A stretch of 46,775 nucleotides of DNA from an uncultured Pseudomonadales bacterium. GTDB lineage: Bacteria; Pseudomonadota; Gammaproteobacteria; Pseudomonadales; Azotimanducaceae. Under the pieces are notes generated by a model, which saw only the letters and a list, made by a program, of their open reading frames with translations, had not been told where the DNA came from and searched no databases. The DNA is taken from assembly GCA_938017975.1 (NCBI GenBank), contig CALIKQ010000055.1:1-46775 (forward strand). The letters run 5' to 3'. Below, piece by piece: positions 3,275-35,012 of the stretch (within the stretch, counting starts at the first letter, position 1; the number at the start of each line of letters is the position of its first letter). A program made the translations under genes and the position numbers.

Positions 3275-3325
3275 ACCGATCGATGCTACCCCGCTGAATT
3301 AACGAGACATTTAAGTGCTGCCGCC

Positions 3326-8123: not shown

Positions 8124-8971
8124 TAGAGCACCCTAGCCTGAGTTCGATCTAGGCCCAAGGCCTTGGCCAATGCATCGGCAACGAGGTTAATCCCTATGAT
8201 CAGCGAACTCAGTGCGATCATAGGCGCCAGCACAGGCCATGGCGCCAGTGACATATAGATGCGCGCATTGGCGATCATTAATCCCCAGTCGGGCGTCGGC
8301 GGTGTAACTCCAAACCCTAAAAAGGATAAGGCACTGAAGGCGAGAAGCATCCAAGACCAACGCATCGCACTCTCGACAAGCAGGACATCGCGCACGTTCG
8401 GTAAGATCTCCTTTACGACAATCGTTAATGTACGCTCTCCTCTCGCCCTGGCCGATTGCACGTAATCTTTGACGACTTCATCAAGTGTCGCCGCCCTCGC
8501 CAATCGAACGACTCCGATGCCATAGAAAAACCCAAGGGTCAAAATCATCACCATGGGTTCGTTACCGAAGCTTGCAATAATCAGCAGCAAGAAAATCATG
8601 AAAGGGATCGCCAAAAAGGTGTCAACCGTGCGCATGATCCATTCATCTACGCGTCCGCCCTTGAGCCCTGCAACCATCCCTAAAAAGCTGCCCCACGTGA
8701 TGGCAATGATGGTGCCAAAAACAGTAACCAGAAGTGCCTGCCGACCGCCGAGGAAAGTTCGTGTGAGCACATCCCGCCCCAAGGTGTCGAGCCCAGCCCA
8801 GTGCTGCAGACTTGGCCCCATTGCATCGAGCACCTCGCTTTGCGCATTAAAGTCGTAGGGCACAATCAGTGGCGCGACCAAAGCGAGTCCGCAATGGAAA
8901 AGAACTAACCCAAGACCGATGCGCCCTGAGGGAGACCGAAGCAGGGCCATCAACAGCGAATGGCGGGTCAC
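8123..8971 (-). CDS. ABC importer permease, DppC/OppC type
   Basis: A 282-residue integral membrane protein with about six hydrophobic helices. The N-terminal helix is followed by a periplasmic segment containing 'HWAGLDTLGRDVLTRTFLGGRQAL', the hallmark of DppC/OppC permeases. The cytoplasmic coupling loop is recognisable as 'VQSARARGERTLTIVVKEILPN' near 165-190, where the EAA motif docks on the ATPase. 'FLGFGVTPPTPDWGLMI' near the C-terminus is also typical. It pairs with the DppB-type permease encoded just upstream (4-bp overlap) and the fused ATPase just downstream (1-bp overlap). Confidence 0.95.
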   Translation of the reverse strand: MTRHSLLMALLRSPSGRIGLGLVLFHCGLALVAPLIVPYDFNAQSEVLDAMGPSLQHWAGLDTLGRDVLTRTFLGGRQALLVTVFGTIIAITWGSFLGMVAGLKGGRVDEWIMRTVDTFLAIPFMIFLLLIIASFGNEPMVMILTLGFFYGIGVVRLARAATLDEVVKDYVQSARARGERTLTIVVKEILPNVRDVLLVESAMRWSWMLLAFSALSFLGFGVTPPTPDWGLMIANARIYMSLAPWPVLAPMIALSSLIIGINLVADALAKALGLDRTQARVL

Positions 8972-9927
8972 TGTGCTGCTCCTTGCCGCGTTCGGAGTTT
9001 AGGGTTGAGCAAAAGCGTCGCGATATCCGCCATTAAATTGAGCCCAACATAGATCGAAGCCATGAGTAGCGCGAGCGCCTGAACCAATGGAAAATCACGA
9101 TCTGCGATCGCGTTGACTGACAATCTACCAATTCCTGGATAATTGAAAACGACCTCAACCACCAGGACCCCACCCATCAACCAAGCAATGTTCAGTGCGA
9201 TCAGATTAATGGCGGGTAGTAGCGCGTTCGGCAGTGCATGACGCAAGACCTGCCGTGTCTTTGATAATCCTTTGAGCTCGCTCATCATCACGAAGTCGCT
9301 GGCGAGCACATCGATCATACTGGACCTGACCATGCGCATAATGTGCGCCACCATGACAAGCATCAAAGTCAGCACGGGCAATCCAATTTGCCCAAAGACC
9401 TCAATAATCGGCGCATCGACTCGCATGATCACGATACCCGGCAACCACCCCAAGTAGACGCTGAAAAAGGAGATCAACAGCGTGCCAGTAATAAACTCTG
9501 GAATGGTCATGAAAAAAATGGCTGCAGAGGAAATGAAGAGATCTGCTTTTTTGTCCCGCCAGAGCGCGGCGAGCACCCCAAGGAAAATCGCCAGCGGTAT
9601 GCCCAGTGCCGCAGCCGTCAGCCCTAAGATTAAGGTGTTTCTAAATCGGGGCCCGATCACACTTTCGAGCGGCTTACTTCGCTTAATGCTTTTACCCAGA
9701 TCACCTTGCGCCAAGCCTTGTGCCCAGGCGATATAGCGCACATAGGCTGGCTCGTTCAGGCGATGTTCCACTCGGCAGTTGTCGAGGCGCTGGCCCTGAG
9801 CCATCTGTCCCAAAAATGCTTCGCAAGCGTCACCCGGCAATAATTCGACCGCAATAAAAACCACTAAAGACACTACCCAAAGCGTCACAAAAGCAAATAA
9901 AAATCGAAAGGTAATGAGACGCAGCAA
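8968..9927 (-). CDS. ABC importer permease, DppB/OppB type
   Basis: A 319-residue membrane protein with an N-terminal helix, a periplasmic segment and a five-helix core, as in DppB/OppB. The segment 'YVRYIAWAQGLAQGDLGKSI' is the family's conserved periplasmic motif. 'LKGLSKTRQVLRHALPNALLPAINLI' is the EAA coupling loop. 'VVEVVFNYPGIGRLSVNAI' near 260-280 is also characteristic. It is the first gene of the minus-strand transport operon and overlaps the next permease by 4 bp. No binding-protein gene lies in this operon; the only candidate is the convergent one at 4794-6281. Confidence 0.95.
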   Translation of the reverse strand: MLRLITFRFLFAFVTLWVVSLVVFIAVELLPGDACEAFLGQMAQGQRLDNCRVEHRLNEPAYVRYIAWAQGLAQGDLGKSIKRSKPLESVIGPRFRNTLILGLTAAALGIPLAIFLGVLAALWRDKKADLFISSAAIFFMTIPEFITGTLLISFFSVYLGWLPGIVIMRVDAPIIEVFGQIGLPVLTLMLVMVAHIMRMVRSSMIDVLASDFVMMSELKGLSKTRQVLRHALPNALLPAINLIALNIAWLMGGVLVVEVVFNYPGIGRLSVNAIADRDFPLVQALALLMASIYVGLNLMADIATLLLNPKLRTRQGAAQ

Positions 9928-9998
9928 TGATTAACCTATTGTCTTAAACCATGACAGAGCGAGACCCGTCTCGGACTCGTTTGTTCTTGATGTCCAGA

Positions 9999-11021
9999 TC
10001 ACCAAGCGCACAAACCCAATTGGGCGCCTTGTTGCAAAGCTGTCTTAGTCGTTGCATTGGGTATTAATTCAGCAGCGCCTTTGTTACACACGAGGGTTTG
10101 ATCACCATGGCCAGCGAGGTCGAGCAAGATCTGGTCGAGATGACGGTACTGAATGTCATGCCCCTCATCAGGGTAGGCACGAATGGTCACAGATGCCTGC
10201 GGGAAAACATCTCGCCAAACCTCAAGACTTTGGGCGCCCAGGACTGCATCGGCGAGGCCTGCATAGACAAAAACCGGCGCCTTCACTGACGTCATATCGA
10301 TCAAGCCCTCTTGACAGTAAAGCTTGATTTCATGATCCAGCGGTGCAGGATCAGCCAATTGTCCCCGCATAAAGTGCGCGCGTGCACCCTCGTCAAACGC
10401 AGTGTCTTGAAAGCCGGTGACCTGATGCATTGGACTGTCTGAGCCAAAAGCAAAGAACTGCATGGGATAGCGCAACAAATCGCGATAAGCGCTGGCAGGC
10501 GAATCTGCGGCGCACCGCTGACCACCGCCTAAGGAAGGAGCGGTTGCGGCCAAATGAACGGAGCGCAGTTGCTCGGGATTACGGCTTGCGATCTTTTGGG
10601 TATAGGGTCCGCCGCCCGAAATACCAAACACTGAAAACTGCTCGATTTGAAGGTGCGCTAAAACCTCCTCAACATCTTCCGCAAAATTCGTCATCGTGAG
10701 CGCCGGGTCGAACGGCGTCTGTCCAAACCCATTACGTTCGACGGTGATAAACCGCAGGCCTAAGTCGGCGCGAAAGGTCTGCAAAAAGTCTAACAGCCTT
10801 AGCGCTCGTACCGATGTGCCAAGACCGCCGGTAAAAACAACCGCTCGTCCATTTGGGTCGCCATCATCAATAAAATGGATGACACGCCCCTGCGCGCCTT
10901 CGACCTGTTTTACCGTCGGACCCAGCCCATCGAATTTTTGGGGAAAGTCGATTGGGGCAGCATCAACATTGACCTCGATCAAAAGTCCTAGTAACAACAC
11001 CCACTTCATTGTCCTATACAT
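9999..11021 (-). CDS. exported alpha/beta hydrolase
   Basis: 340 residues (336 if the second ATG at 11009 is used, which starts at MKWVLLLGLL). A signal peptide covers the first 20 or so residues. The alpha/beta hydrolase fold is supported by an oxyanion region 'VFTGGLGTSVRALRLLDFLQ', the nucleophile elbow GISGGGP, a candidate acid in 'VYAGLADAVLGAQSLEVW', and the catalytic His in 'YPDEGHDIQYRH'. A Cys-containing cap and tail (Cys residues near the C-terminus) suits a periplasmic location. The substrate is unknown. The gene stands alone between the ABC permease operon and a 437-bp intergenic region. Confidence 0.88.
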   Translation of the reverse strand: MYRTMKWVLLLGLLIEVNVDAAPIDFPQKFDGLGPTVKQVEGAQGRVIHFIDDGDPNGRAVVFTGGLGTSVRALRLLDFLQTFRADLGLRFITVERNGFGQTPFDPALTMTNFAEDVEEVLAHLQIEQFSVFGISGGGPYTQKIASRNPEQLRSVHLAATAPSLGGGQRCAADSPASAYRDLLRYPMQFFAFGSDSPMHQVTGFQDTAFDEGARAHFMRGQLADPAPLDHEIKLYCQEGLIDMTSVKAPVFVYAGLADAVLGAQSLEVWRDVFPQASVTIRAYPDEGHDIQYRHLDQILLDLAGHGDQTLVCNKGAAELIPNATTKTALQQGAQLGLCAW

Positions 11022-11458
11022 CTGTTAACTCCACCGATCTGTCTTTCATCACTCGATGCTCACCTTTCTAGCGCTTGTTATAGGCAACGCTTTGTATCTC
11101 CAACACTGCACAACCACGGCCTTAGCTGAGAGCGATTATAAGCCGATCAAGCAGCGCCCTCCTGCTCCAATTGGCTCTAAAACCCGGATTTTCAGCCCGG
11201 CCATAGCTCTCTACGCCCGCAAAAACCAGCCGTTGCTATGCGCTTTTTGACCCCGTTGCACCAATCGGAGATTGTAGGACGCTCTGCATTCCAGCCTTCG
11301 ACAGATAAAAAGAAAATCAACAAATTGCTCTATTGCCGGCCACAATGCAACCGACCATACTGCGGTGCGAGGCTCTGATCGAATGATTCAGCGCCCAATG
11401 CCGTGCAAAAGGCGTGTGATGTGTCCAATCCTTTAACCATCATTTAAAGAGCATAGAT
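11022..11458. other. intergenic region, no convincing gene
   Basis: 437 bp between the divergent alpha/beta hydrolase and carnitine dehydrogenase-like genes. A 64-codon open frame at 11056-11250 has no recognisable family and no good ribosome binding site, so I do not call it. The stretch probably holds the promoters of both flanking genes. An AAAGAG sequence seven bases before the ATG at 11459 can serve as that gene's ribosome binding site. I see no tRNA or clear riboswitch. Confidence 0.5.
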
Positions 11459-15871: not shown

Positions 15872-18334
15872 ATGTTTCTACATAGTGACAACACTGCGAT
15901 GAAACAACCTCCTCAGGATGCTGAGGTCATCATTATTGGCGGCGGCATCATCGGTTGCTCGATTGCCTTTCACCTCACACAAATCGGCATCAAGGACGTG
16001 GTGCTATTTGAGCGCCAGAAACTAACATCGGGCACAACCTGGCATGCAGCAGGTCTTGTTGCCCAGTTGCGCGCGTCGCAGAATATGACTCGCTTAGCTC
16101 AATATACCGCCCAACTTTTTAAGGACCTGAGTAGCATCACAGGCCAGGAGACCGGATATCAGCAAACCGGATCTCTTACTCTTGCCCTAAATCCTGAACG
16201 GCTTGAGGAACTCAAGCGCCAAGCCACGTTGGCCCGCGCATTTGGAATCGATTGCGAGACCATTTCGCCAGAGGACGCGCTTCACTATTGGCCAGGATTA
16301 AACCTTGAGCAAGCGATTGGCGGCGTCTATCTCTCCGGCGATGGGCAAACCAATCCCATTGATACCACACTTGCCTTTGCCAAAGGCGCCCGCCAGAGCG
16401 GCGCACAGATTATGGAGGACACTGAAGTCGAACGCCTGCTCATCGCGGGTGATCGCGCCGTCGGCGTCCAGTTGCGTTCGGGTGAGTCGGTTCGGGCCAA
16501 GACCGTGGTCCTCGCAGGCGGGATGTGGTCTAGACAATTCGCAGCCCAACACCAAGTCACCTTGCCGCTCCACGCGGCAGAGCATTTTTATCTGGTAACA
16601 GAGCCCATCGCCAGCTTCACCTCAATGCGCCCGACTCTGCGAATTCCAGATGAGCAGACCTACTATAAATACGATGCTGGCAAACTACTTTTGGGCGCCT
16701 TCGAGCTCAACGCAAAGCCCTGGGGGATGTCGGGTATTCCCGATGAATTTTGCTTCGATGCGCTACCTGAAGACTTTTCACATTTTGAACCCATTTTAAA
16801 TCAAGCCGTCAACCGGTTCCCTGAACTTGAGCAGGCCGGGATTCAACTGTTTTTCAATGGCCCAGAAAGCTTCACCCCTGATAATCGCTACCTGCTTGGG
16901 GAGACACCAGAGATCAAAAAGCTCTTCGTTGCCTCAGGCTTTAACTCCATCGGAATTCAATCCTCTGGTGGTGCAGGCAAGGTCTTGGCGGAGTGGATCA
17001 AACAAGGCACGCCTCCAATGGACCTCTGGGATGTCGATATTCGCCGCACCTTTCCGTTTCAAAATAGCGACCATTTTCTTTATGAGCGAACCCAGGAGTC
17101 TTTGGGCTTACTCTACGATCTGCACTGGCCAGACCGACAGTTTAAGACAGCACGAGATCAACGCCTCAGTCCTTTACACCATCGCCTCACTGCAAATGGT
17201 GCACTGATGGGTGAAGTCGCAGGTTTTGAGCGGCCGCTGGTCTATCAAGCAGAGGGGGAATCCTACGAAGGTGTTTACACCTACGGACAGCCCGTCTGGT
17301 TTGACGCTTGCCAGAGGGAGTGCGATGCGATTCATCAAACCGTGGCATTTTTTGATCAATCGAGTTATCCGATCTATGCGCTCTCCGGCGCATCTAGCCT
17401 GTCTTGTTTGCAGTGGATTTGCGGAAGAGACATGGATCTTGAGATCGATCAAATCGTCTACACCCAGCTTCTCAACAGCTCCGGCGGGATAGAGGCTGAT
17501 GTCACCATCGTCCGCTCTGCCGCCAACGAGTTTCTCATCACCGGCGGCTGTGCAACAGAGAGACGGGATCGGTTCTTTTTGAAGGCCCATGCCAAGACCT
17601 TTGGCTGCGCATTGACCCGCCGAGAAGACCTTTGCACCCTAGGGCTGATGGGTCCCCATTCTAGAAACCTGCTGAGCTTACTGACCGATGATCAAAATTG
17701 CGCAGCGCTGCACTTCTATCGCAGCATGAAGACCAGCATTGCCGGCGCAATGATCCGAATCAATCGCCTCAGCTATGTGGGAGAACTCGGCTTTGAATTG
17801 GTCGTTGATCGCGAACATGCCGTTGATATCTTTGACCGTATTAAAACCCAAGGGCAGCCACTTGGTCTGACATTGGCTGGCTTTTACGCGATGAATGCCT
17901 GCAGGATGGAGAAAGGTTATCGACATTGGGGGGATGACCTTACCGATCGCACAACCCCTTTTGAAGCAGGCTTAAAGTTTTGTGTAGACCTTGAAAAACC
18001 GGATTTCATCGCTAAGCCTGCCCTGCAGGCACTGCCCAAAAAGCTTCCTGCAAGGCTGGTCAATATTGCCATCCTGAGCGAATCCCCGCCCTTTATGATT
18101 CATGATGAGCCGATCTTCTGCGGCGACCACCAGGTCGGCCTCACCACCTCCGCAGCCTGGGGGCATCGCATTGGGCGGAGTCTTGCTGTTGCCAGCGTCG
18201 CTCACTCCAACGGCGTGTCAAAGCGCTGGCTTCAAGAAAATGACTTTGAAGTTGAGGTCGCCGGCCAACGCTATCCCATTGAAATTCAATTCGACGCGTT
18301 TTTCGATCCGTCTGCAATACGGCTTCGCAACTAG
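15872..18334 (+). CDS. dimethylglycine/sarcosine dehydrogenase-like FAD-GcvT fusion protein
   Basis: 820 residues from the ATG at 15872; a second ATG at 15899 (811 residues) is equally possible, and neither has a clear ribosome binding site. The N-terminal FAD oxidoreductase domain (about 15-390) has the dinucleotide motif [10 protein letters not shown] and '[12 protein letters not shown]', whose His is the covalent flavin attachment site of dimethylglycine dehydrogenases. The C-terminal half is an aminomethyltransferase (GcvT) fold that would pass the released one-carbon unit to tetrahydrofolate. It is a paralogue of the protein at 26090-28543. It is followed 47 bp later by the selenoprotein gene, suggesting an operon. 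The substrate is a methylated amine; dimethylglycine or sarcosine are the best guesses. Confidence 0.9.
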
Positions 18335-18381
18335 CTTCTCGTGGGAACCCCCATTACACTCTTAAGAAAAGGAGCGCTTTT

Positions 18382-18930
18382 ATGCCCAGAATTCGACTTG
18401 TTCCAGATCAAGAGCTACCCCCAGAGACCTTGCAGCAGGTCACCGCAATGGAGGCCGCCGGGCAAGATACGGCGTTGACTCGAGGCCTGGCTAACGCGCC
18501 AGAATTCTTCAAAAGCTATTTCTCCTTTTATCTTCCAGCAAGACAAGGCCACAGTCTCGATGAGGCGCTCATTGAATTGGTTCGCCTCAAGGTCGCCAGA
18601 CTCAATGACTGCTTTACCTGACTGAATGCGCGGCTTCTGCAGGTTGCAGAAGGAGAAACCCCTAAGTTGACCGAGGCAAAAATTGCTGAGCTCGATGCCG
18701 ACGAGAATCAATTCTCTAGGGAGGAAGTGCTCGCACTCGACTACGCCGAGAAACTCGCACACAGCCATCACTCAATGGATGATGCCTATTTCGACAGACT
18801 TAGAACTGTCTTCAGCGATGAGCAAATCGTCGAGCTGGGTATGCTGATTGGGCAATTTATCGGATTTGGACGCTTACTGGCCGCGCTCGATCTCGAGCCC
18901 AAAACCTGTCCAATCCCCAATGCTGATTAA
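18382..18930 (+). CDS. AhpD/carboxymuconolactone-decarboxylase-like selenoprotein (Cys-x-x-Sec)
   Basis: 182 residues if the TGA at 18619-18621 (codon 80) is read as selenocysteine. The frame is open on both sides of that codon and the two halves make one typical AhpD-like all-helical protein. The N-terminal half ends 'LIELVRLKVARLNDCFT' and the C-terminal half contains 'ALDYAEKLAHSHHSMDDAYFDRLRTVFSDEQIVELGMLIGQFIGFGRLLAALDLE'. The TGA replaces the second Cys of the family's CxxC redox site (Cys77-Phe-Thr-Sec80), followed by Arg84. A bacterial-type SECIS hairpin lies 12 bases downstream. AhpD-like selenoproteins with this motif are known from marine metagenomes. The start has a good AAAGGAG site. 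The likely role is thiol/selenol peroxide or disulfide reduction. A split pseudogene is the alternative, but the TGA position and hairpin argue strongly against it. No selA/selB/selC/selD is in the window. Confidence 0.9.
18634..18652 (+). promoter_or_regulatory. bacterial SECIS element of the AhpD-like selenoprotein
   Basis: A perfect 7-bp stem, CTTCTGC (18634-18640) with GCAGAAG (18646-18652), closes a 5-nt loop AGGTT. The loop starts 19 nt after the in-frame TGA, and its first G is 21 nt after it, inside the 16-37 nt window of bacterial SECIS elements. Stem length, small loop and an early loop G followed by U match the bacterial consensus; the loop resembles the GGU loop of E. coli fdhF. 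It would recruit SelB with Sec-tRNA during translation. The element is part of the coding sequence. Confidence 0.85.
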
Positions 18931-18961: not shown

Positions 18962-19273
18962 TTGGTCTATCAACTCCGCCAATATCAGATTCACTCAGGT
19001 CAAATGGATCGCTGGATGGGCATTTTTAATGAGCACATTAGGCCCCTGCATGAAAGACTGGGTATCCCCATCATCGGCTCTTGGCAGAGCGAGGGTCAAA
19101 AATCCTTTATTTGGATCAGGGCCTTTGACAGTGCCGCAGCTATCGAACGTAAAGAAGCCGATTATTTTTCAGCGCCGGAGCGCCAGGCTTTGGGAGATTT
19201 ACCACAAACTCTGATCGCCTCGATGGCGATCACTGTCATGACCCATACTGACCAAGCGCATCTTCCAGCCTAG
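18962..19273 (+). CDS. NIPSNAP-family small protein (TTG start)
   Basis: A 103-residue protein with the ferredoxin-like alpha/beta barrel signature of NIPSNAP proteins: 'YQLRQYQIHSGQMDRWMGIFNEHIRPLHERLGI' followed by 'IIGSWQSEGQKSFIWIRAFDS' and 'FSAPERQAL'. It starts at TTG, with a run of six G residues nine bases upstream as the only ribosome binding candidate. It lies 31 bp after the selenoprotein stop, so it is likely co-transcribed with the flavoprotein and the selenoprotein. NIPSNAP members are small dimeric proteins with poorly known roles; no catalytic function is assigned here. Confidence 0.85.
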   Translation: MVYQLRQYQIHSGQMDRWMGIFNEHIRPLHERLGIPIIGSWQSEGQKSFIWIRAFDSAAAIERKEADYFSAPERQALGDLPQTLIASMAITVMTHTDQAHLPA

Positions 19274-20865: not shown

Positions 20866-21462
20866 TTAGGCGGAGGTGATTCCGAGCCCATCTGCTCCTA
20901 TCCGCGCCGTCATCCACGACAGCACGTAATCAGCAAAGGTTCTGCGCACACTGATCGAATATCGAGGTTCATCTGAGATCTTCGCGATCAACACATTGGC
21001 CTTGGCAAAGCCGCTCTGCGCGCATTGGCCAGGATTAAAACTCAGCGGATGAAAATCGAGCGTACAACCCTTGCTCAACAGATCAGTACTCTCCGAACCC
21101 GAAACCTCTAGGGTTACCATCCCGCCGGAGAGATCATTGATTGCAGCAAAAGCATCGCTTAACCGAGTGCGCAGTTCACCGACCATGTCATCGATTCGAT
21201 GACTGGGGGCCATAATCATCCATTCGCTGGGACCCAACCAGAGGGCCCTCAAGTCACCTTCACTCAATTGGTGTGTATTGGGGGTTAGAGGCAGGGACAC
21301 GCCTGTCACTGCCTTGATCACCGATAGAAAATTAGGATTGTCCACTTCGCCGCGCACATTGACGTGTCCAAGATCAGTGCGTAACCGCACATCAACTCGC
21401 GGGTCGCTCGGTACGGCCTTGGACAACCAATTTTCGACTCCATGTTGCGGCTGCTCAGACAT
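20866..21462 (-). CDS. soxG: sarcosine oxidase gamma subunit
   Basis: 198 residues from the ATG at 21462, chosen because AAAGGAG lies about nine bases upstream; the frame extends further but overlaps soxA. It has 'LWLGPSEWMIMAP' and 'GGMVTLEVSGSESTDLLSKGCTLDFHP', and the C-terminal 'SVRRTFADYVLSWM' is typical of SoxG. It forms the small subunit of heterotetrameric sarcosine oxidase (alpha, beta, gamma, delta), which oxidatively demethylates sarcosine to glycine and yields 5,10-methylene-tetrahydrofolate and hydrogen peroxide. Its start lies within the last bases of soxA (8-bp overlap), as expected for coupled subunits. Confidence 0.95.
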   Translation of the reverse strand: MSEQPQHGVENWLSKAVPSDPRVDVRLRTDLGHVNVRGEVDNPNFLSVIKAVTGVSLPLTPNTHQLSEGDLRALWLGPSEWMIMAPSHRIDDMVGELRTRLSDAFAAINDLSGGMVTLEVSGSESTDLLSKGCTLDFHPLSFNPGQCAQSGFAKANVLIAKISDEPRYSISVRRTFADYVLSWMTARIGADGLGITSA

Positions 21463-24400
21463 TTTGTCGTGCTCCTTTGGGATCATAGAAGACGGATTCA
21501 GTAACCTCCACCGGAACCACTTCGCCATTGGCTGAATGCACCAACAATCGGTCTCCCCGGCGTTTGCGACCGCCCACCAATAAAGCCAAAGCAATCGGAT
21601 GGCCGAGCGCTGCGCTCGAATAGCTCGAGGTGACATGTCCCAGCAGCGGCATCGGCGTCACGATCGGCGCGTCTTCGGTGATTTGTCCGCCCTCGGGCAA
21701 AACGGTTCGACCGTCCACGGACAATAGTCCCACCAGTTGCTTACGATCCTTTCGTCGGCTATCAGGCCTCGCCAAAGATCGGCGACCTATGAAATCCTTG
21801 TTTTTGGACAGCATCCAGCCCATTTTTAGGTCACCGGGCGTCACAGAGCCATCGGTATCCTGACCGACAATGACGAATCCCTTCTCAGCCCGCAGGACGT
21901 GCATGGTCTCTGTGCCATAAGGCGTCATATCGAAGGCTCCGCCAGCCTCATAGATGGCCGTCCACAACCCTGCGGCGTAGCGACTATCTACATTGACCTC
22001 GAAGGCCAGCTCGCCGCTAAAACTGACCCGAAACAACTGCACCGCGATACCATTGAGTGTCGCTGGCCTAACCGTCATGAACGGAAATGCTGATGCCGAG
22101 AGGTCCTCGCTACAATCCAGCTTCTCGAGCACTGCTCGGCTTTTAGGGCCAACCACTGCGATCGTGGAGTATTGATCCGTCAGAGATGTCAGGTGCACCT
22201 TTAGATCCGGCCATTCCGTTTGGAGCCAAAGCTCTAGCCAAGACAATACATTCGCGGCGCCGCCAGTCGTGGTGGTGAGGTAATAATGATCAGGACCGAG
22301 CCGCGCCATCACCCCATCGTCCATCACCATGCCGTCCTCTCCTAACAAGAGGCCATAAGCGCATCGACCGATGCTCATCTGATCCACATCGTGGGTGTAC
22401 ATCCTATTTAGAAACTCGGTTGCATCCGGGCCTTGGACATCAATTTTTCCTAGGGTCGAGGCATCCATCATTGCAACGGATTGCCTAGCCGCTCGACATT
22501 CACGCGCAACCGCCGCGTCCATATCCTCCCCTGTCCTTGGAAAGTACCAAGGCCGCAACCACTGCCCCACAACCTCGTGGGGCGCGTTTTGTGCTTGATG
22601 CCAGTCGTTCATTGCCGTGGTCCTGGTAGGTTCGTACAGATCCCTCACCGATTCGCTGGCGCAGACCGCGAAGCTCGTCGGCGTATAGGCGGGCCTAAAG
22701 GTTGTGGTCCCGACCTCGGGAATTGCTCTTCCCAGCGCTTCTGCCAAAATCGCCATGCCATTGATATTGCCAAGCTTGCCTTGATCCGTCCCAAAGCCCA
22801 GCGCCGTGTAGCGCTTAACATGTTCAACACTTTCAAAGCCTTCGCGGACAGCCAACCTAATATCAGATACCGAGGTGTCATTCTGGAAATCAACAAACTG
22901 CTTGGGTGGTCGACCTGACGCCTTAGCGGCCGGTACCGACCACAATGCCTCGAGCGGCGCTTGGGTCCAGTCCTTAAGTTCTGGTAAAGGCACCTCCACC
23001 GACTCAAACCCACACCGGGTTGCTGCGACAGCCCCAGCTTGAACTCCGCTTTCAAGGCAATCTTTTAAGTTAAAAATGCCATTACCAGCGCCTACCGAGA
23101 TATTGTGGACAGCATCATTAGGCTTTGGCAGGAACGCCTTGAGGCCGTCATCCCAATGTAGTTGCCCCCCCGCTTGGGAATGCAAATGCACCGCCGGGCT
23201 CCAGCCTCCAGAGACGGCAACCAAATCGCAACGCAGCGTCATTGCAATATCGGTCTCAGACGCGCCCTCAACCCTTCGGCCAACCTGAACCCCTTTGACC
23301 GCTTGCCTACCGATAACATCGCAGACCACATGACCGGCCATCAAGGGAATACCAAGCGCATCAAAGATTGTTTTGATTTCGCCCGGTCCCTCGGACCGAG
23401 CATCAATCACAGCAACAACCGTAATGCCTGCCGAATGCAAGTCGATGGCCGTTTGGTAGGCCGAATCATTATTGGTAAAGACCACGGCCCGGTCCCCAGC
23501 TTTCACTGCATAGCGGTTAAGGTAGGTTGATACCGCCGAAGCCAACATCACGCCGGGTCGATCGTTGTTACCAAAAGCCAGGGGGCGCTCAAAAGCACCT
23601 TGGGCAAGCACCACTTGGCCTGCACGCACTCGCCAGAGTCGCTCCCTGACACCCGATCGCTGCATCACCGGTAGATGGTCGTGGCAACGTTCCGCAAGCG
23701 TCAGAAAATTATGATCGAAATAACCAAAGGCAGTGGTTCGAGGTAAGATCCGAACATTTTCAAGGGATTCAAGTTCCGCGATTTGCGCCGCGAGCCAGGC
23801 GCCACTGAGATCCCCATCAGCGCCCGGCGCTGCGCTCAAAAGACTACCGCCAAACTCATTCTGTTCATCGGCGATGAGAACGCGCGCTCCGCTTCGCGCG
23901 GCCGACAGGGCTGCCATGAGACCCGACGGCCCAGCACCCACAACCAACACATCACAATGAATGTTTTGCTGTTCGTACTCGTCCGGATCGGCCTCATCCG
24001 GGGCTATGCCAAAACCTGCCATCGCACGAATCACTCGTTCATACAGGTCCCAAAATCGTCGCGGGTACATGAACGTCTTGTAGTAAAACCCTGCACTTAA
24101 AACACCGCTGACCGTGTCATTGATCGCACCAAGGTCGAATTTGACGCTCGGCCAACCCTTTGTTGTGCGCGCCTCGAGGCCTTCAAAGAGTTGCACCTGC
24201 GTTGCCCTGGGGTTTGGAATCGCTCGATCGCCGGAACCAATCTGCATGATGGCGTTGGCCTCTTCTGCGCCGGCAGCCATGATCCCCCGGGGTCGGCGCA
24301 ACTTAAAACTCCGGCCGACGAGCCTGATGCCATTGGCGAGCAGGGCTGAGGCAAGGGTGTCTCCCTCCAGACCTGTTAACTTCTGACCGTTGAAGGTGAA

Positions 24401-24466
24401 ATTTAAGACCCGGCTGCGGGCAACCCGAGCATCACGTTCTAGGCGGTAGGGCTGACCGGTGCTCAC
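21455..24466 (-). CDS. soxA: sarcosine oxidase alpha subunit
   Basis: 1003 residues from a GTG at 24466. This start overlaps the soxD stop (GTGA) and has GGAGG seven bases upstream; an in-frame extension to 24604 lies inside soxD and is not coding. Domains in order: an N-terminal 2Fe-2S-like fold with 'FTFNGQKLTGLEGDTLASALLANG', a pyridine-nucleotide-disulfide type domain with 'VLVVGAGPSGLMAALSAARSGARVLIADEQ', and a C-terminal aminomethyltransferase (GcvT) domain binding tetrahydrofolate. Length and order equal those of known heterotetrameric enzymes. It houses the NAD+ and folate sites, while SoxB holds the flavin chemistry. Confidence 0.97.
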   Translation of the reverse strand: MSTGQPYRLERDARVARSRVLNFTFNGQKLTGLEGDTLASALLANGIRLVGRSFKLRRPRGIMAAGAEEANAIMQIGSGDRAIPNPRATQVQLFEGLEARTTKGWPSVKFDLGAINDTVSGVLSAGFYYKTFMYPRRFWDLYERVIRAMAGFGIAPDEADPDEYEQQNIHCDVLVVGAGPSGLMAALSAARSGARVLIADEQNEFGGSLLSAAPGADGDLSGAWLAAQIAELESLENVRILPRTTAFGYFDHNFLTLAERCHDHLPVMQRSGVRERLWRVRAGQVVLAQGAFERPLAFGNNDRPGVMLASAVSTYLNRYAVKAGDRAVVFTNNDSAYQTAIDLHSAGITVVAVIDARSEGPGEIKTIFDALGIPLMAGHVVCDVIGRQAVKGVQVGRRVEGASETDIAMTLRCDLVAVSGGWSPAVHLHSQAGGQLHWDDGLKAFLPKPNDAVHNISVGAGNGIFNLKDCLESGVQAGAVAATRCGFESVEVPLPELKDWTQAPLEALWSVPAAKASGRPPKQFVDFQNDTSVSDIRLAVREGFESVEHVKRYTALGFGTDQGKLGNINGMAILAEALGRAIPEVGTTTFRPAYTPTSFAVCASESVRDLYEPTRTTAMNDWHQAQNAPHEVVGQWLRPWYFPRTGEDMDAAVARECRAARQSVAMMDASTLGKIDVQGPDATEFLNRMYTHDVDQMSIGRCAYGLLLGEDGMVMDDGVMARLGPDHYYLTTTTGGAANVLSWLELWLQTEWPDLKVHLTSLTDQYSTIAVVGPKSRAVLEKLDCSEDLSASAFPFMTVRPATLNGIAVQLFRVSFSGELAFEVNVDSRYAAGLWTAIYEAGGAFDMTPYGTETMHVLRAEKGFVIVGQDTDGSVTPGDLKMGWMLSKNKDFIGRRSLARPDSRRKDRKQLVGLLSVDGRTVLPEGGQITEDAPIVTPMPLLGHVTSSYSSAALGHPIALALLVGGRKRRGDRLLVHSANGEVVPVEVTESVFYDPKGARQNV

Positions 24467-24756
24467 GCCTCGTCCTCCGTCAGCGTCGGGGAGGTATCTT
24501 CTTGAAGCTGATAGCTCCGGCGGATTGCATAGGTCACAGTATGACGCTCGACACCAAACCATTGCCGGCAGCCTTGGCTGTGATTCCAAAGTTCCCGGTG
24601 CCAACCCTTTGTGTTTTTACGCATAAAAAGATAGTCCGCCCAGGCGGCGTCATCGAGCTGGTCGGGCTGCAGGGGCCGGGCAATATCGGCTTCTCCACCG
24701 GGTGAGAATTCAGATTCGTCTCGCTGTCCGCACCAAGGACACTCAATCAACAACAT
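24463..24756 (-). CDS. soxD: sarcosine oxidase delta subunit
   Basis: 97 residues from the ATG at 24756, preceded by GGAGGA; a longer frame to 24804 overlaps the end of soxB. The zinc-binding pattern of SoxD is present: Cys6 and Cys9 in 'IECPWCGQRDE', then His59 and Cys63 in 'WNHSQGCRQWF' (His53 nearby). The family's 'YLFMRKNTKGWHRELW' is conserved. It is a small structural, zinc-binding subunit of heterotetrameric sarcosine oxidase. It starts 16 bp after the soxB stop and its stop overlaps the soxA start codon. Confidence 0.96.
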   Translation of the reverse strand: MLLIECPWCGQRDESEFSPGGEADIARPLQPDQLDDAAWADYLFMRKNTKGWHRELWNHSQGCRQWFGVERHTVTYAIRRSYQLQEDTSPTLTEDEA

Positions 24757-24772
24757 GCTTTGTCCTCCGCCA

Positions 24773-26026
24773 TCAGTGCGCCACCGCCGCTGCGCCGTGT
24801 TCATCTATTAAAGCGCCTGATTCAAAACGCCCGAGGCTGAAGGCTTCATTCAATGCGTGGGCCTTGTCATGTGCCATGGTGTGCGCGAAAACCCAACCAG
24901 AGCCAGGCGTGGCTTTAAAACCGCCGGTTCCCCAGCCACAGTTGAAGTACAGGCCGTTAACGGGAGTTTTACTGATGATGGGGCACGCATCTGGGCTGAC
25001 ATCAACAATACCACCCCACATCCTCAGCATCCTGACCCGACTGAACTGCGGAAATAACTCAACAATGGCTTGAACTGCGTGTTCGATGGTTGAAAAACTA
25101 CCGCGCTGGCCATAGCCCAGATAACCATCAATGCCGGCGCCGATCACCAGTTCGCCCTTATCGGACTGACTGATATAGCCATGAACCGCATTCGACATTA
25201 CAACGGTGTCGAGTACCGGTTTCAGCGGTTCGGAGACAAATGCCTGAAGTGGATGGCTCTCAAGCGGCAATCGAATTCCTGCCTTTTCCGCCATCACGCT
25301 GGCATGCCCAGCGGTCACGACCCCGACCCGATTTGACGCAATCGGACCTCTCGTCGTCTGGACGCCGGTCACTTGACCAGACTTGATATCAAATCCCGTT
25401 ACCTCACATTGCTGGATAATATCGACGCCCAACGCATCCGCTGCACGCGCAAACCCCCAGGCCACAGCATCGTGTCGAGCTACTCCAGCGCGTGGCTGAT
25501 AGGATGCACCGAGTATTGGGTAGCGCGCCGAAGGCGATGTGTTCAGACCAGGAATTGCGTGGGCCAGGGTTTTTGCGGAGACCATCTGAGCATCAATTCC
25601 GTTAAGGCGATTGGCTGCAACCCGGCGCTCTATGTCCCGCATATCTTGCAAGGAATGTCCGAGGTTATAAACCCCGCGCTGAGAAAACATGACGTTGTAA
25701 TTAATATCTGCGCTGAGTCCTTCCCAGAGCTGCATCGCCTTCTCATAGAGCAGCGAGGACTCCGTCCATAAGTAGTTAGAACGCACAATGGTCGTGTTTC
25801 TTCCGGTGTTACCACCGCCGACCCAACCCTTTTCTAACACCGCGACATTCTTGAGCCCTTGTTCCTTCGCCAAATAGTAGGCAGTGGCAAGACCATGACC
25901 TCCACCACCGACAACAATGGCGTCATAGTGCGGTTTGGGCTCTGGGTCCCGCCAAGCGCGTTGCCATTTTTGGTTACCACTCAGCGCATTTTTTACGAGA
26001 GAAAAAGCTGAATATCGCTGCACCAT
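24773..26026 (-). CDS. soxB: sarcosine oxidase beta subunit
   Basis: 417 residues. The N-terminal FAD-binding fold '[23 protein letters not shown]' is near 34-56, followed by '[17 protein letters not shown]', characteristic of SoxB. '[19 protein letters not shown]', '[32 protein letters not shown]' and the C-terminal '[29 protein letters not shown]' complete a standard beta subunit that carries FAD and covalent FMN. It catalyses sarcosine oxidation. A GGATAGG ribosome binding site precedes the ATG. It lies 63 bp downstream of the dimethylglycine dehydrogenase-like gene. Confidence 0.97.
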
Positions 26027-26089
26027 CAGGGCCTATCCTTTTTCATTGCTCTACCTAAAAAAGATTGAAACATTTCTGCCCTCTCACCC

Positions 26090-28543
26090 TCACGCCTGCT
26101 GGGTCACGTTACGTAACCGGGTATTTTCAGGATCAAAGGGACTCTCCTTCACCACCACCGCAGAATAGGCTTTACCAAGGATGTCGATCGCGACCACTGT
26201 GCCAGGCTCTGCATACGCAGGGCTCATCATCGCGAGCGCGAGCGACGCGTTACACCTGAAGCCAAACCCTCCACTGGTGGCCCGTCCCACCAGTTCGCCG
26301 TTTACGGTCAATGCATTGTTGCCGAGCGCATCGGCATCCACTACATCCATGACTTCAAGGGTCACCAATTGACTGCCAGACCCAGCCTCCTGCCAATCGA
26401 TGAGCGCCTGTCTTCCGAGAAAATCACCTTTGTCCAAATCAACAAAACGGTCGAGTCCTGACTCAAAAGCTGAGTATTCGATTGACAGCTCTGTCCCCAC
26501 GGTCCGATAAGACTTTTCTAACCGCATGGTGTCCATCGCACGAATGCCAAAAGGCTTGAGCTCAAGATCGGCTCCCGCCTCAAAGAGTGCATCGAAAATT
26601 GTATTCTGATATTCGATGGGGTGATGCAACTCCCAACCCAGCTCGCCAACGAAGTTAACCCGCAATGCCTTCACTGGAGCGCCGCCGACCAGGATGTCCT
26701 GGCCCGTGAGCCATCGAAACTTTTTGTTCGAAAAATCAGCACTCGAAACTCGCTCTAGGAGTTGCTTGGATTTAGGCCCAGCAACAACCAAAACGCCCAT
26801 CGCCGACGTCAACTGGGTAAAAACAACCGAACCATCCTTTGGCATATGTTTTTTAAGGTAATCATGGTCCAGTCGCTGAAGCGCACCGGCTGAGACAAGG
26901 TAATAACTCTCGGCGCCTTCCTTGAGAATCGTAAACTCCGAATGCACCCCGCCGCGCGTGTTCAACGCGTGACACAAACTAATACCACCCACTTTTTTCG
27001 GTGCTTTATTTGCGACGAAATAATTTAAGAACGCCGCGCTACCTGGTCCTGAAATCCGGCACTTTGCAAACGCTGTCATGTCCAGCAAGCCCACATGCTC
27101 GGTCACATGCGCGACTTCGCGCTTGATCGCATCAAACCATTTAGATCGCCGAAATGACCAATGATCTTCTTGCGGCTCTCCTTGGGCAACAAAAAAGTTT
27201 GGCCGCTCCCAACCAGATTTTTGTCCAAACACCGCGCCCATCGCTTTGAGGCGGTCGTAACACGGCGCCGTCCGATGCGGTCTTGCAGCCGGGCGCTCTT
27301 CATCTGGGTAGTGCGTGACGAAAACATGCGCATACGCTTCTTCGGTCTTTTTAATCAAATAGTCTTTTGTGACATAGTCCCCAAACCGACGAGGGTCAAC
27401 GCCCAACATATCGATGGTCGGTTCACCTTCGACAATCCATTCCGCCAATTGCCATCCTCCGCCGCCCGCGGCAGTAATGCCAAAGCTGTGGCCCTCGGTT
27501 AACCAAAACTGCTCAGCATCCCAAGCCGGGCCGATGATTGGATTACCATCCGGGGTATAAGCGATCGCACCGTTATAGACCTGCTTAATGCCCACCTCAG
27601 CAAACGCGGGCACTCGCGCCATCGCTGCCTCAATGTGGGGCGCTAATCGATCTAGATCCTCTTGGAATAGCTCATACTCAGCCCGCGGGTCTGGACCATC
27701 CACATAGCATGCCGGTGCACCCTCTTCGTAGGGCCCTAAAATAAATCCGCCATTTTCTTCGCGCAAATACCACGACCCGTCAGATTCTCGCAGGACGCCC
27801 AATTCTGGCTGACCAGCAGCCCTGCGCGCTTGCAGCTCGGGATGCGGCTCGGTGACGATATACTGATGTTCAACCGGCATAACAGGCACATCGAGTCCTA
27901 TCATCGCACCGGTCTGGCGTGCGTAGTTACCGGTAGCAGAGATCACATGCTCACAGCTGATGTCGCCCTGCTCGGTTTTGACGATCCAATTATCTGAAAA
28001 CCCTCTTTCAATGGCGATCACAGGCGTATTACGGTAAATGGTCGCTCCCCGCGCTCTGGCGCCTTTTGCAAAAGCTTGGGTCAGATCCGCTGGTTGTATA
28101 TAACCATCGTCAGGGTGGTAGATTCCGCCGACAAGACCATCAGGGTTGCACAAGGGCCATAGCTTATGAATTTCTGCGGCGGTCAAAAATTGGACATTCA
28201 CACCTATTGTCCGCGCGGTCGCAGCATACTGATAGTACTCATCCATTCGGTCATCGTTCATTGCCAGTCGAAGATTGCCAACTTGGTGAAAACCCACCGC
28301 CTGGCCAGTCTCGGCTTCGAGCGCTCGATACAACTCGACCGAATACTTATGAATCTGACCAACGCTATAACTCATGTTGAAGAGCGGCAGTAAGCCTGCT
28401 GCGTGCCAAGTTGAGCCTGAAGTTAGCTCAGCCTTCTCTAGCAAAACGACATCATCGCCCCAGCCTTTTTTTGCAAGGTGATACAGCGCGCCCGCACCCA
28501 CAACGCCGCCGCCTATCACAACCACTTTTGCTTGACTCTTCAA
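26090..28543 (-). CDS. dimethylglycine dehydrogenase-like FAD-GcvT fusion protein (TTG start)
   Basis: 817 residues, starting with TTG at 28543, supported by AAGGAG seven bases upstream. The N-terminal FAD domain has VVVIGGGVVGAGALYHL (7-23) and 'LTSGSTWHAAGLLPLF' with His47 as the expected covalent flavin site. The C-terminal half is a GcvT-type aminomethyltransferase domain: 'GFGIRAMDTMRLEKSYR'-like residues near 690, and 'TSGGFGFRCNASLALAMM' near the end. It would oxidise dimethylglycine to sarcosine and load the methyl-derived carbon on tetrahydrofolate. Placement between the betaine methyltransferase genes and soxBDAG fits the middle step of the demethylation route. The substrate is inferred from that order. 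Confidence 0.92.
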   Translation of the reverse strand: MKSQAKVVVIGGGVVGAGALYHLAKKGWGDDVVLLEKAELTSGSTWHAAGLLPLFNMSYSVGQIHKYSVELYRALEAETGQAVGFHQVGNLRLAMNDDRMDEYYQYAATARTIGVNVQFLTAAEIHKLWPLCNPDGLVGGIYHPDDGYIQPADLTQAFAKGARARGATIYRNTPVIAIERGFSDNWIVKTEQGDISCEHVISATGNYARQTGAMIGLDVPVMPVEHQYIVTEPHPELQARRAAGQPELGVLRESDGSWYLREENGGFILGPYEEGAPACYVDGPDPRAEYELFQEDLDRLAPHIEAAMARVPAFAEVGIKQVYNGAIAYTPDGNPIIGPAWDAEQFWLTEGHSFGITAAGGGGWQLAEWIVEGEPTIDMLGVDPRRFGDYVTKDYLIKKTEEAYAHVFVTHYPDEERPAARPHRTAPCYDRLKAMGAVFGQKSGWERPNFFVAQGEPQEDHWSFRRSKWFDAIKREVAHVTEHVGLLDMTAFAKCRISGPGSAAFLNYFVANKAPKKVGGISLCHALNTRGGVHSEFTILKEGAESYYLVSAGALQRLDHDYLKKHMPKDGSVVFTQLTSAMGVLVVAGPKSKQLLERVSSADFSNKKFRWLTGQDILVGGAPVKALRVNFVGELGWELHHPIEYQNTIFDALFEAGADLELKPFGIRAMDTMRLEKSYRTVGTELSIEYSAFESGLDRFVDLDKGDFLGRQALIDWQEAGSGSQLVTLEVMDVVDADALGNNALTVNGELVGRATSGGFGFRCNASLALAMMSPAYAEPGTVVAIDILGKAYSAVVVKESPFDPENTRLRNVTQQA

Positions 28544-28701
28544 AATCAGCTCCTTATTCCTAACTCCATGACCGCTTGCCTATCTCGTCTCGATTCTATC
28601 CGATTGGCACCTAGGTCACTTAATGACGGTGAACAACGTTGGACCGCCTATTATTCGGTGAAACGATCAGCCCGCACCCCTTATTCACACCGGTCTTGCC
28701 T

Positions 28702-30747
28702 TTATCCTGGGTCGGACAAAGCTGACCCACGGGTTTGGCGACCGCGCCGACGACCACCTCTGTCGCCCCTTTTTGCAATCCGACTACTCGGTCTGGATCG
28801 CCCAAGCTGATTAAACAGCAAAGGGAATTGATCACGCTTATTTGGGAATGCCATCGCATCGACAAAAAAATCCTGAAAGCCAGGTTCAAGTGCCGTCTCA
28901 ATTTTTGTAATTTGCTGCACCAATGATTCAATTTCGCGTCGAGCACTGACATTCAGCAGCGCAATCCTCGCTCCAGTACCCGCGGCATTACCTGCTGAGG
29001 AAACCTGAGCAAGATCACAATCTGGAATCAACCCAAGCACCATCGCGTAGGTCGTATCAATGTGCGCACCAAAAGCTCCCGCCAACCGCACTTGATCCAC
29101 AGACTCGATCTCTTCTCGAGCCAAAAGGAGCTTAATGCCGGCATAAAGCGCCGCCTTGGCCAACTGCACCTGCCTGACGTCGTTTTGAGTTACTACAATT
29201 GCTCGCTCGCCCTGCCAAAGCTGGTAGGAGAATGTCCGGTCATCGGCGATCACTCGAGCACTACGGTCAACCAGATTGCCATCGATCACCCCATCCTCAT
29301 CCACCACGCCAGCAAGGTACATCTCAGCAATGACTTCGATGATGCCCGAACCGCATATACCTGAGACACCCACCTTGGCAACGACTTCATCAAAACCAAC
29401 CTCATCTGACCAAAGATCTGAACCGATGATTTTAAATTTGGGCTCCAAGGTTTCAGGGTTGATCCGAACGCGCTCAATTGCACCCGGCGCAGCCCGTTGT
29501 CCACAGCTAATTTGTGCGCCCTCAAAGGCCGGTCCCGTTGGGCTGGAACATGCCAATAATTTGCCATTGTTGGATAAGACAATTTCTGCGTTTGTTCCGA
29601 CGTCCACGACCAAAGACACACCAGCCTGGGCCTGAGGTGCCTCAGCCAATACCATTGCAGCCGCATCAGCCCCGACGTGACCGGCAATGCAGGGCAAGAC
29701 GTACACCTGTGCCCCGGGATTGGTTTTCATCGCGAGGCTTGCCGCATCCTGATCAATGGCCGCATCTGTGACCAGAGCAAAGGGGGCCGTGCCTAACTCC
29801 ACTGGACTGAGTCCCAAAAACAAATGGTGCATAATGGGATTTCCCGCAATGCTCAGTTCTAAAACGTCGCTAGGGACACAATCCACCTGAGCAACCGTCT
29901 CGTCAATCAACTGGTTGACCGCTGCTCTGACCACTTGGGTCATCTCTTCTCGCCCTTCTGGCTGCATCAAGAGATAAGAGACTCGGCTCATCAAGTCTTC
30001 ACCGAAGCGAATTTGAGGGTTCATCATCCCCGCAGAGGCGACGACCTCGCCATTACCCAAATCACACAAGTGACCGGCAATTGTCGTGGAACCGATGTCC
30101 ACCGCTAACCCGAACACTTGATCCTTGTAGCCTGGCCAAACCGCAACAACCCGGTCTGATCGATGCACCGCAACGGTGACCTGCCAGTTACCCTCACGAA
30201 GAGCGGGCTGAAGCGACTGAAGCACCGACGGATGACAAGACAATCCGTTTAAATCGAAGGTTTCCGTAAGCGCGATTTGCAATCGCTCCAAATCACCGGT
30301 TGAAGACTCAAGCATTGCTGGCTGCACTTCAACACAGTACAGCCGAGTTGCGGTTTCGAGCGCGATCGATCGACGTTCCGCCTCTTTTCTAATGAGTTGG
30401 CGATGCATCTGACTTTCAGGTGGAACATCAATGACCAGATCTCCAAGGACCTGCGCCTGACAACTGAGCCGCTGACCAGGGCGCAGCGTGAGTCTCTTAG
30501 CACTGTAACGCTGTTCAACTGCTGAGAACGAAGAGAGATGCGCGGCGCTCGAGGTGATGGCATGTTTTGAGAACTCACCATCACAGACCAGAACCTTACA
30601 ACGGCCACAAATGCCCCGCCCACCACAGACTGAATCAACATCGACACCCAAGATTCGAGCCGCATCTAAAACCGGGATGCCTTGCGGAACCTCACCGCGC
30701 TGACCAGACGGCATAAAAACGATGTTGGCAGTAGCAGAAGTCTTCAT
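28702..30747 (-). CDS. corrinoid-protein reactivating ASKHA-domain ATPase with N-terminal 2Fe-2S ferredoxin (RamA-like, DUF4445)
   Basis: 681 residues. The N-terminal ferredoxin-like domain has Cys41, Cys47, Cys50 and Cys96 (CxxxxxCxxC...C), a 2Fe-2S pattern. A linker is followed by the actin-like ASKHA domain: 'FGLAVDIGSTTIAGHLCDL' near 213-231 and 'VSLVVDVGTNAEIVLSNNGKLLACSSPTGPAFEGAQISCG' near 360-400. Such proteins use ATP to reduce inactive cob(II)alamin on methyltransferase corrinoid proteins back to cob(I)alamin. The last 33 residues contain ten Arg and one Lys and look disordered. It begins 12 bp after the tetrahydrofolate methyltransferase gene. Confidence 0.93.
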   Translation of the reverse strand: MKTSATANIVFMPSGQRGEVPQGIPVLDAARILGVDVDSVCGGRGICGRCKVLVCDGEFSKHAITSSAAHLSSFSAVEQRYSAKRLTLRPGQRLSCQAQVLGDLVIDVPPESQMHRQLIRKEAERRSIALETATRLYCVEVQPAMLESSTGDLERLQIALTETFDLNGLSCHPSVLQSLQPALREGNWQVTVAVHRSDRVVAVWPGYKDQVFGLAVDIGSTTIAGHLCDLGNGEVVASAGMMNPQIRFGEDLMSRVSYLLMQPEGREEMTQVVRAAVNQLIDETVAQVDCVPSDVLELSIAGNPIMHHLFLGLSPVELGTAPFALVTDAAIDQDAASLAMKTNPGAQVYVLPCIAGHVGADAAAMVLAEAPQAQAGVSLVVDVGTNAEIVLSNNGKLLACSSPTGPAFEGAQISCGQRAAPGAIERVRINPETLEPKFKIIGSDLWSDEVGFDEVVAKVGVSGICGSGIIEVIAEMYLAGVVDEDGVIDGNLVDRSARVIADDRTFSYQLWQGERAIVVTQNDVRQVQLAKAALYAGIKLLLAREEIESVDQVRLAGAFGAHIDTTYAMVLGLIPDCDLAQVSSAGNAAGTGARIALLNVSARREIESLVQQITKIETALEPGFQDFFVDAMAFPNKRDQFPLLFNQLGRSRPSSRIAKRGDRGGRRRGRQTRGSALSDPG

Positions 30748-30759
30748 TTCATTAATGAC

Positions 30760-31665: not shown

Positions 31666-31743
31666 GAGAGATTCCTTTTCATTACATCCGATTTCCTGTT
31701 CACTACAACAGCCGATGGGCAACCAAATACGCCAATTTGCCCA

Positions 31744-32052
31744 TCAACCAAGCGCTTCGCCATGTGCGCGAATCATTCCCTCTAGTTGAGCATCTGAGTA
31801 TTGTGTTTCGAGCTGCTCTGCTCGCACCGCGAGTAACTCCGCCATGTCCATCGCCGTCTCAACCGTCTCAGACACCCGCCGCCACTCTGATAGGTAGGCG
31901 GTGCTACTACCCTTACCTGCGCGCATTGCAGCGCGGTCAACAGCTTCCTGAAAGCGCGCACTGAGCAGCACCTTCTGACGAACTCGACCGCGTTGGGCAA
32001 TGAGCTGGGATGGAATGTCACGCCAATAGACGGTGATCAGTTTGATCTTCAT
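31744..32052 (-). CDS. small 'virulence factor'-family protein of methyltransferase operons
   Basis: 102 residues from the ATG at 32052 (GGAA a few bases upstream; an in-frame TTG at 32064 adds four residues). It begins MKIKLITVYWRDIPSQLIAQRGRVRQKVLLSARFQEAVDRAAMRAGK, matching the short conserved family labelled 'virulence factor' in databases. I recall this family as a companion of MttB-type methyltransferase clusters. Despite the name, nothing here suggests virulence. It overlaps the 3' end of the DUF1638 gene. It is a soluble, mostly helical protein with no recognisable catalytic motif. It might be an assembly or accessory factor for the corrinoid methyltransferase; this is inference from context. 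Confidence 0.78.
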   Translation of the reverse strand: MKIKLITVYWRDIPSQLIAQRGRVRQKVLLSARFQEAVDRAAMRAGKGSSTAYLSEWRRVSETVETAMDMAELLAVRAEQLETQYSDAQLEGMIRAHGEALG

Positions 32053-33359: not shown

Positions 33360-33403
33360 GACACGCTCCTACTGCACCCGTTAAAACCCATTCTTTCGCC
33401 CGA

Positions 33404-34939: not shown

Positions 34940-35012
34940 AGTCCACACTCGTCGCCCTCGAGCGACCTGAACGGACGCTTTCGGCAAGGCAAATTTTCGT
35001 CTTATCGGAGCG

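Follow-up and report, generated by a model that had tools for sequence, protein, structure and literature searches.

A probable AhpD-like selenoprotein encoded beside one-carbon enzymes in an uncultured Pseudomonadales bacterium

AhpD-like selenoproteins with a CxxU motif have been known from marine metagenomes since 2005, when 27 sequences were reported from a Sargasso Sea set (PMC1088965), and the preliminary description of the locus considered here was correct in mentioning them. Members assigned to COG2128 were also reported in 2006 (PMC1794560), and the 2008 survey of the GOS data contained 299 'AhpD-like 1' (COG2128) and 70 'AhpD-like 2' (pfam02627) sequences, which places them among the commoner ocean-metagenome selenoproteins; the accessible part of that survey states no physiological role (PMC2398784). 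A 2026 review includes AhpD-like selenoproteins in its list (PMC13188914). The AhpD-like protein PA0269 is described as reducing H2O2 weakly (PMC3141380).

The window, that is, the whole 46,775 nt stretch that was analysed, includes two apparently separate ORFs (18382–18621 and 18667–18930) that had been proposed to form one protein. They do lie in a single frame, as the only in-frame stop between the ATG at 18382 and the TAA at 18928–18930 is a TGA at 18619–18621, codon 80. The read-through product is a predicted AhpD-like protein of 182 aa, and its translation includes the predicted Cys77-Phe-Thr-Sec80 and Arg84. Neither half alone has a Pfam family match at E 0.001, and the joined protein matches CMD weakly (20.2 bits, under the cut-off of 23). 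A scan for frames with at least 70 codons before a TGA and at least 50 after it found 15 in the window, with 18382–18930 overlapping large ORFs least (0.07 versus 0.79–1.12). The features of the locus are as follows.

15872–18334, plus strand: DMGDH-like flavoprotein with DAO, FAO_M, GCV_T and GCV_T_C domains (Pfam; best solved relative 5l46)
18367–18374, plus strand: Shine-Dalgarno-like AAAAGGAG ahead of the ATG at 18382 (by eye, sequence only)
18382–18930, plus strand: probable AhpD-like selenoprotein gene, 182 aa, Sec at codon 80 (read-through frame, codon-80 comparison)
18619–18621, plus strand: UGA as presumed selenocysteine codon (66 TGA, 49 Cys and 1 CGA among 116 distinct sequences)
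18634–18652, plus strand: putative bacterial SECIS-type hairpin, 7 bp with the 5 nt loop AGGUU, 12 nt past the UGA (comparison)
18962–19273, plus strand: NIPSNAP-family protein, 31 bp downstream of the AhpD-like gene (PF07978, 37.6 bits)

A promoter and terminator scan found one promoter-like site (2.4 expected) and eight terminator-like sites (4.0 expected) and was not used as evidence.

A motif search for Cys homologues found none, and tblastn was used in its place. The first eight relatives, found with peptide seeds, were 59–95% identical and had TGA at codon 80 in all cases (8/8). The only seed that spans the site carries Cys, so any seed bias favoured Cys forms. Profile searches at E 1e-20 gave matches in 16 of the 293 genomes searched in the order and in 81 of the 206 in the family. 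At E 1e-30 the class gave 2 of 369, the window's genome and G584. The window's own genome is counted each time. The 74 genes located initially reduce to 51 distinct sequences (37 TGA, 7 TGC, 6 TGT and 1 CGA); matching positions indicate apparent same-genome duplicates among L018–L025 and several genome entries, and identical sequences were merged in all distinct counts. By our own count, the main match in the family search has the TGA in 64 of the 206 genomes, window included. All 34 TGA-bearing places added from this search have it at codon 80, though some overlap earlier stretches, and Cys was found in 37 of its 38 stop-free places (27 TGC and 10 TGT), the other being a decayed CGA copy. Combined, the 116 distinct 45 nt stretches, window included, comprise 66 with TGA, 34 with TGC, 15 with TGT and one with CGA. 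Among the 50 distinct sequences without TGA, 49 have the Cys that had been expected at this position in aligned homologues; the remaining one is the decayed copy. The comparison thus confirms UGA80 as a predicted selenocysteine codon, and we infer that it is decoded as such in the window's own species.

Three genomes (G329, G412 and G403) carry, along with the main Sec form, a second, more distant AhpD-like gene (L183, L184 and L185; 29–31% identity) in which the corresponding codon is also TGA (3/3). The decayed copy, L123 in G466 (about 2600–3400), has CGA at codon 80 and has lost part of its C-terminal half; its hairpin is still recognisable. In L018 (1484–2032), the same gene has UGA at codon 80 for Sec and TGA again as its terminator.

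The hairpin described previously, with 7 bp, an AGGUU loop and its first base 12 nt past the TGA, is present: CUUCUGC (18634–18640) pairs with GCAGAAG (18646–18652) around the loop at 18641–18645. As in bacterial selenoproteins, the stem-loop lies just 3' of the UGA and its small apical loop includes a G. Folded as a single sequence, the 50 nt are no more stable than shuffles (z −0.34), so it is comparison that supports the hairpin. In an early set, six or seven of the seven pairs formed in one register in 34 of 35 distinct stretches. We then used 33 of the 37 distinct Sec forms, having dropped two that were identical over 45 nt and one over 42 nt and excluded L113, in which the hairpin is shifted. 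In these, 92.6% of 231 pair cells were formed, both partners had changed at five of the seven pairs, and the covariation of 0.239 was reached by none of 500 shuffles. Related sequences can beat shuffles without any structure, but slid registers, which keep the relatedness, were only 35–65% paired with covariation of 0.052–0.122. Only the number of further pair types (6 versus 7.2 in shuffles) was not above expectation; all other measures stand out.

The larger comparison used 61 of the 66 Sec forms, leaving out L113, the distant second forms L183–L185, and L219, which is cut by a contig end. Pair cells were formed in 93.9% of cases versus 43–60% in slid registers. The 93.9% is inflated by the exclusion of L113 and two of L183–L185, each of which has 4–5 of the 7 pairs in register. 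Seven pairs were formed in 37 sequences, six in 22 and five in two, with the outermost pair failing in 23 of the 61. Two fully different pair types occur at five of the seven positions (for example 50 U-A/11 C-G, 43 G-C/18 A-U and 36 C-G/24 U-A). The 49 Cys stretches form only 1–5 pairs in the Sec-form register, and the decayed CGA copy still forms six. In a free scan, two Cys forms (L036 and L043) had 8-pair hairpins elsewhere, with scores like those of the weakest Sec forms. L113, a far relative at 38% identity, forms a slightly shifted 7 bp hairpin with a GGUC loop. Strong covariation supports a predicted SECIS-type element.

Selection past the UGA is purifying. Between the window and L018, dN/dS is 0.02 for codons 1–79 and 0.052 for codons 81–182; between the window and L019 it is 0.092 downstream of the UGA, and synonymous sites upstream are saturated. 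The 19 hairpin bases do not differ among the three. In a tree of 50 rows (the decayed L123 was dropped from it and from the residue-conservation alignment, leaving 50 of 51), Sec forms fall on one side of one branch (support 89/81, not starred), and L113 sits on a very long branch and is of unsure placement.

Used to query solved structures, the family profile returned 11 sequences at E 1, including AhpD-like, CMD-family and peroxidase-related proteins (2ijc, 2o4d, 7xw1, 2prr and others), with E values of about 3e-10 to 4e-10 for 2ijc and 2o4d. Glu65, 12 residues ahead of Cys77, and Cys77 itself are present in 50 of 50 sequences, and the AhpD-like CxxC appears here as CxxU. In a second count, Glu65 was found in 71 of 73 readable sequences, with Asp in L183 and Leu in L196. 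The proton-relay His of AhpD, four residues past the second Cys, is absent; Arg84 is found there in 50/50 and in 73/73 readable sequences. As Arg84 is common to Sec and Cys forms, it is not an adaptation to Sec.

Taken together, it is highly probable that 18382–18930 encodes one AhpD-like (CMD superfamily) selenoprotein, with Sec80 inserted by tRNA-Sec and SelB under the direction of the hairpin, a CxxU redox centre and a possible role in one-carbon metabolism. Judging from the comparison, tRNA-Sec with SelB would decode UGA80, directed by the hairpin 12 nt downstream. The redox centre would consist of Cys77-x-x-Sec80 with Glu65 and Arg84. Sec is a better nucleophile than Cys, and by analogy with AhpD-like proteins and general selenol chemistry the selenolate would most likely attack a peroxide or disulphide substrate, Cys77 would then form a selenenylsulphide to resolve the intermediate, and a reductant of the thioredoxin type would restore the centre.

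The neighbouring genes were proposed to be operon partners, and their positions are as described, with the flavoprotein stop at 18334 leaving 47 bp before the ATG, and the NIPSNAP gene downstream at 18962–19273. The flavoprotein has the domain set of dimethylglycine dehydrogenase and a nearly full-length match to 5l46 (390 bits). The partnership stands in part: the DMGDH-like gene lies directly upstream in three species and the NIPSNAP gene follows in six, all in the window's genus, and neither was found adjacent at the other loci, where neighbours were surveyed for 1.5 to 6 kb on either side, contig permitting. Among 54 loci including duplicates (E 1e-4), a 60–100% identical flavoprotein is upstream only in L018/L086, L019/L087 and L028, and a family-wide flavoprotein operon was rejected. 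NIPSNAP is next to the gene only in those and in L088, L090 and L091.

The species concerned form an orthologue group of six (the window's genome G000, G469, G461, G470, G462 and G463) whose tree fork is not starred. NIPSNAP follows the gene in 6/6, the five others being 52–69% identical to the window's. G469 and G461 have a flavoprotein 60–80% identical to the window's upstream, and G463, G470 and G462 have instead a GCV_T-type protein downstream, followed in G463 and G470 by an MTHFR-type protein (Pfam was run on the G463 copies); the G462 contig begins 578 bases upstream of the gene. A GCV_T (folate-binding) gene is close by throughout the group. Three other genomes of the genus (G458, G460 and G464) have a different lineage of the gene and other neighbours.

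Because the genus neighbourhood combines folate-dependent one-carbon enzymes with NIPSNAP, the selenoprotein may protect the pathway from reactive by-products. A more specific proposal is that the Sec form of AhpD is a dedicated partner of tetrahydrofolate-dependent demethylation in this genus, acting in a module with NIPSNAP and a GCV_T-domain enzyme to clear peroxide or some other reactive product that methylamine oxidation yields. The enzyme in question would be the DMGDH-like flavoprotein in three species and a GcvT/DmdA-like protein in three (two with an MTHFR-like protein). We regard this as doubtful. Besides the partner, two further proteins of the window score above the Pfam cut-off for GCV_T, which makes chance proximity a serious alternative. 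Literature searches returned no paper joining AhpD with NIPSNAP, and none whose title or abstract opening links dimethylglycine dehydrogenase to a bacterial selenoprotein.

A substantial possibility, though not the one that we favour, is that the selenoprotein does not serve to reduce peroxide but catalyses thiol-disulphide exchange or some other reaction of the CMD fold, and that it lies beside the flavoprotein by accident. The weak activity of PA0269 (PMC3141380), the Arg in place of the AhpD His, the reach of the profile to the debrominase Bmp8 (6ohi, E 0.004) and the different neighbours outside the orthologue group all point this way. Against it stand the top matches among solved structures, which are AhpD-like, CMD-family or peroxidase-related, and the recurrence of NIPSNAP and a GCV_T gene across the six-species group.

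A one-carbon island occupies 20866–34987 on the minus strand of the window. It encodes SoxG-, SoxA- and SoxB-like proteins, a second DMGDH-like flavoprotein, an RACo-like protein, a pterin-binding methyltransferase, a B12-binding protein and an MTTB-family methyltransferase. An Rfam PYLIS_3 (mttB) match (33805–33903, minus strand; 49.3 bits) lies inside the complete 527 aa MTTB-family ORF (33404–34987, minus strand). As this ORF has no in-frame TAG, the match reflects mttB homology and not pyrrolysine use.

The expectation that the same genome would carry selA, selB, selC and selD held for selC and selD. A tRNA-Sec with anticodon UCA is at 7251–7341 of contig C24 (RF01852, 45.8 bits, just under the gathering threshold of 47), and SelD is encoded by a 745 aa fusion ORF at 8814–11051 of that contig, about 1.5 kb from it. 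The segment spanning both (7251–11051, L026) also contains, between them, a 397 aa ORF that is cytochrome P450-like by eye. A tRNA-Sec is likewise found on the selD stretches of G260 and G293, and none on that of G039. In the window's own assembly, which is 96.5% complete, SelA was not found, SelB gave nothing over the cut-off and their usual syntenic neighbours were also not found. Among the 14 other genomes of the genus, a SelA match is absent also in G461, G465, G469 and G470, the last of only 8 contigs. By our own count, 54 of the 64 TGA-bearing genomes have a SelA match, 50 of them over the cut-off. SelA is also present in 10 genomes of the family in which the AhpD-like gene gave no hit, so co-occurrence does not discriminate; with SelA widespread in the family, we dropped it as proof.

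In relatives, selB directly follows selA in 13/13 loci and in 9/10 of a second set, the tenth being at a contig edge, and TIGR00475 names this selB in all three cases tested. Within the genus, the pair occurs with lol-, ApbE-, DCD- and mla-like genes (names from our own reading; the LolC/E-like neighbour scores 295.7 bits with TIGR02212, cut-off 362.45) beside a repetitive gene, and in 6 of 10 genomes a contig ends at most 2.3 kb from selA. The window's own assembly gave no close orthologue of the MlaE-, DCD- or ApbE-like neighbours, and LolC/E-like matches there reach at most 45 bits. In this assembly and in G470, the DCD-, MlaE-, ApbE- and LolC-like queries matched only at 21–36% identity, the MlaE-like part having no match at all. 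Orthologues of the flanking genes were found at 52–100% identity in G461, G463, G467 and G459, where the LolC-like query came from G467 itself, G459 was queried with LolC only and G463 had no close DCD-like match. A LolC-like match of 78 bits in G469 (73% complete) suggests that part of the block may be present there; its absence from the 8 contigs of G470 could reflect a separate replicon or a repeat-driven break. The lolCDE genes are essential in well-studied Gammaproteobacteria. As the syntenic neighbours are missing along with selA and selB, a missing contig is likelier than loss of the two genes.

Loss of selA and selB in this species, leaving a relic gene from which only a truncated protein is made, is accordingly improbable, given their adjacency in relatives and the absence of the MlaE-, DCD-, ApbE- and LolC/E-like neighbours too. 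In its favour is the failure to find SelA and SelB in the window's own assembly. Against it, in G461 the flanking genes are present on contigs C67 and C10 where selA was likewise not found. Retention of tRNA-Sec and SelD and a dN/dS of about 0.05 past the UGA argue against a relic and for a working selenoprotein gene. Reading of the UGA by another tRNA (a reassigned code, a suppressor or plain read-through) to give Trp, Cys or another residue is, on the sequence evidence, very improbable: non-TGA relatives have Cys and none has Trp, a UCA tRNA-Sec is present, UGA is also a stop in L018, where TGA terminates the same gene, and the hairpin covaries. We rejected as a negligible prospect that an ordinary Cys gene has recently acquired a nonsense mutation or contains a sequencing error. 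A single base separates TGA from TGC and TGT, and Cys is found in 49 of the 50 distinct relatives that lack the TGA, but TGA occupies this codon in as many as 66 distinct sequences, the hairpin covaries and selection beyond the UGA is purifying.

Compared with known systems, the predicted selenoprotein is best matched in NCBIfam by TIGR01926 (peroxidase-related enzyme; residues 3–173, 47 bits, curated cut-off 81.8), followed at a distance from their cut-offs by two '(seleno)protein' models, NF053654 (44.8 bits versus 310) and NF041238 (25.8 bits versus 175). None of the four models matched at E 0.01 exceeds its own cut-off, and for this reason the gene may well be split or omitted in standard annotation. 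PA0269 (2o4d) matches the profile with 43 bits over the CxxC region and, as Glu36-Cys48-Cys51-His55 in the published description, shares a Glu placed 12 residues ahead of the first Cys and a relay residue four past the second (PMC3141380). Unlike PA0269 and M. tuberculosis AhpD, the protein has Sec for the second Cys and Arg84 in place of His55/His137. The upstream flavoprotein resembles dimethylglycine dehydrogenase (5l46, 4p9s) over nearly its full length, by sequence. With the marine-metagenome AhpD-like selenoproteins, the gene shares the CxxU motif, the family, Cys homologues and a SECIS-type hairpin, and, from the published descriptions, it likely belongs to one of the GOS or Sargasso Sea subfamilies; the accessible text of those reports names no one-carbon gene neighbourhood (PMC1088965, PMC2398784). 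If the gene is indeed a partner of demethylation, this would provide a physiological role for a marine AhpD-like selenoprotein, and the recurrence of the neighbourhood in one genus makes a role in one-carbon metabolism testable. The kind of protein, AhpD-like with CxxU, is already known, and the new lead is its location beside enzymes of one-carbon (methyl-group) metabolism.
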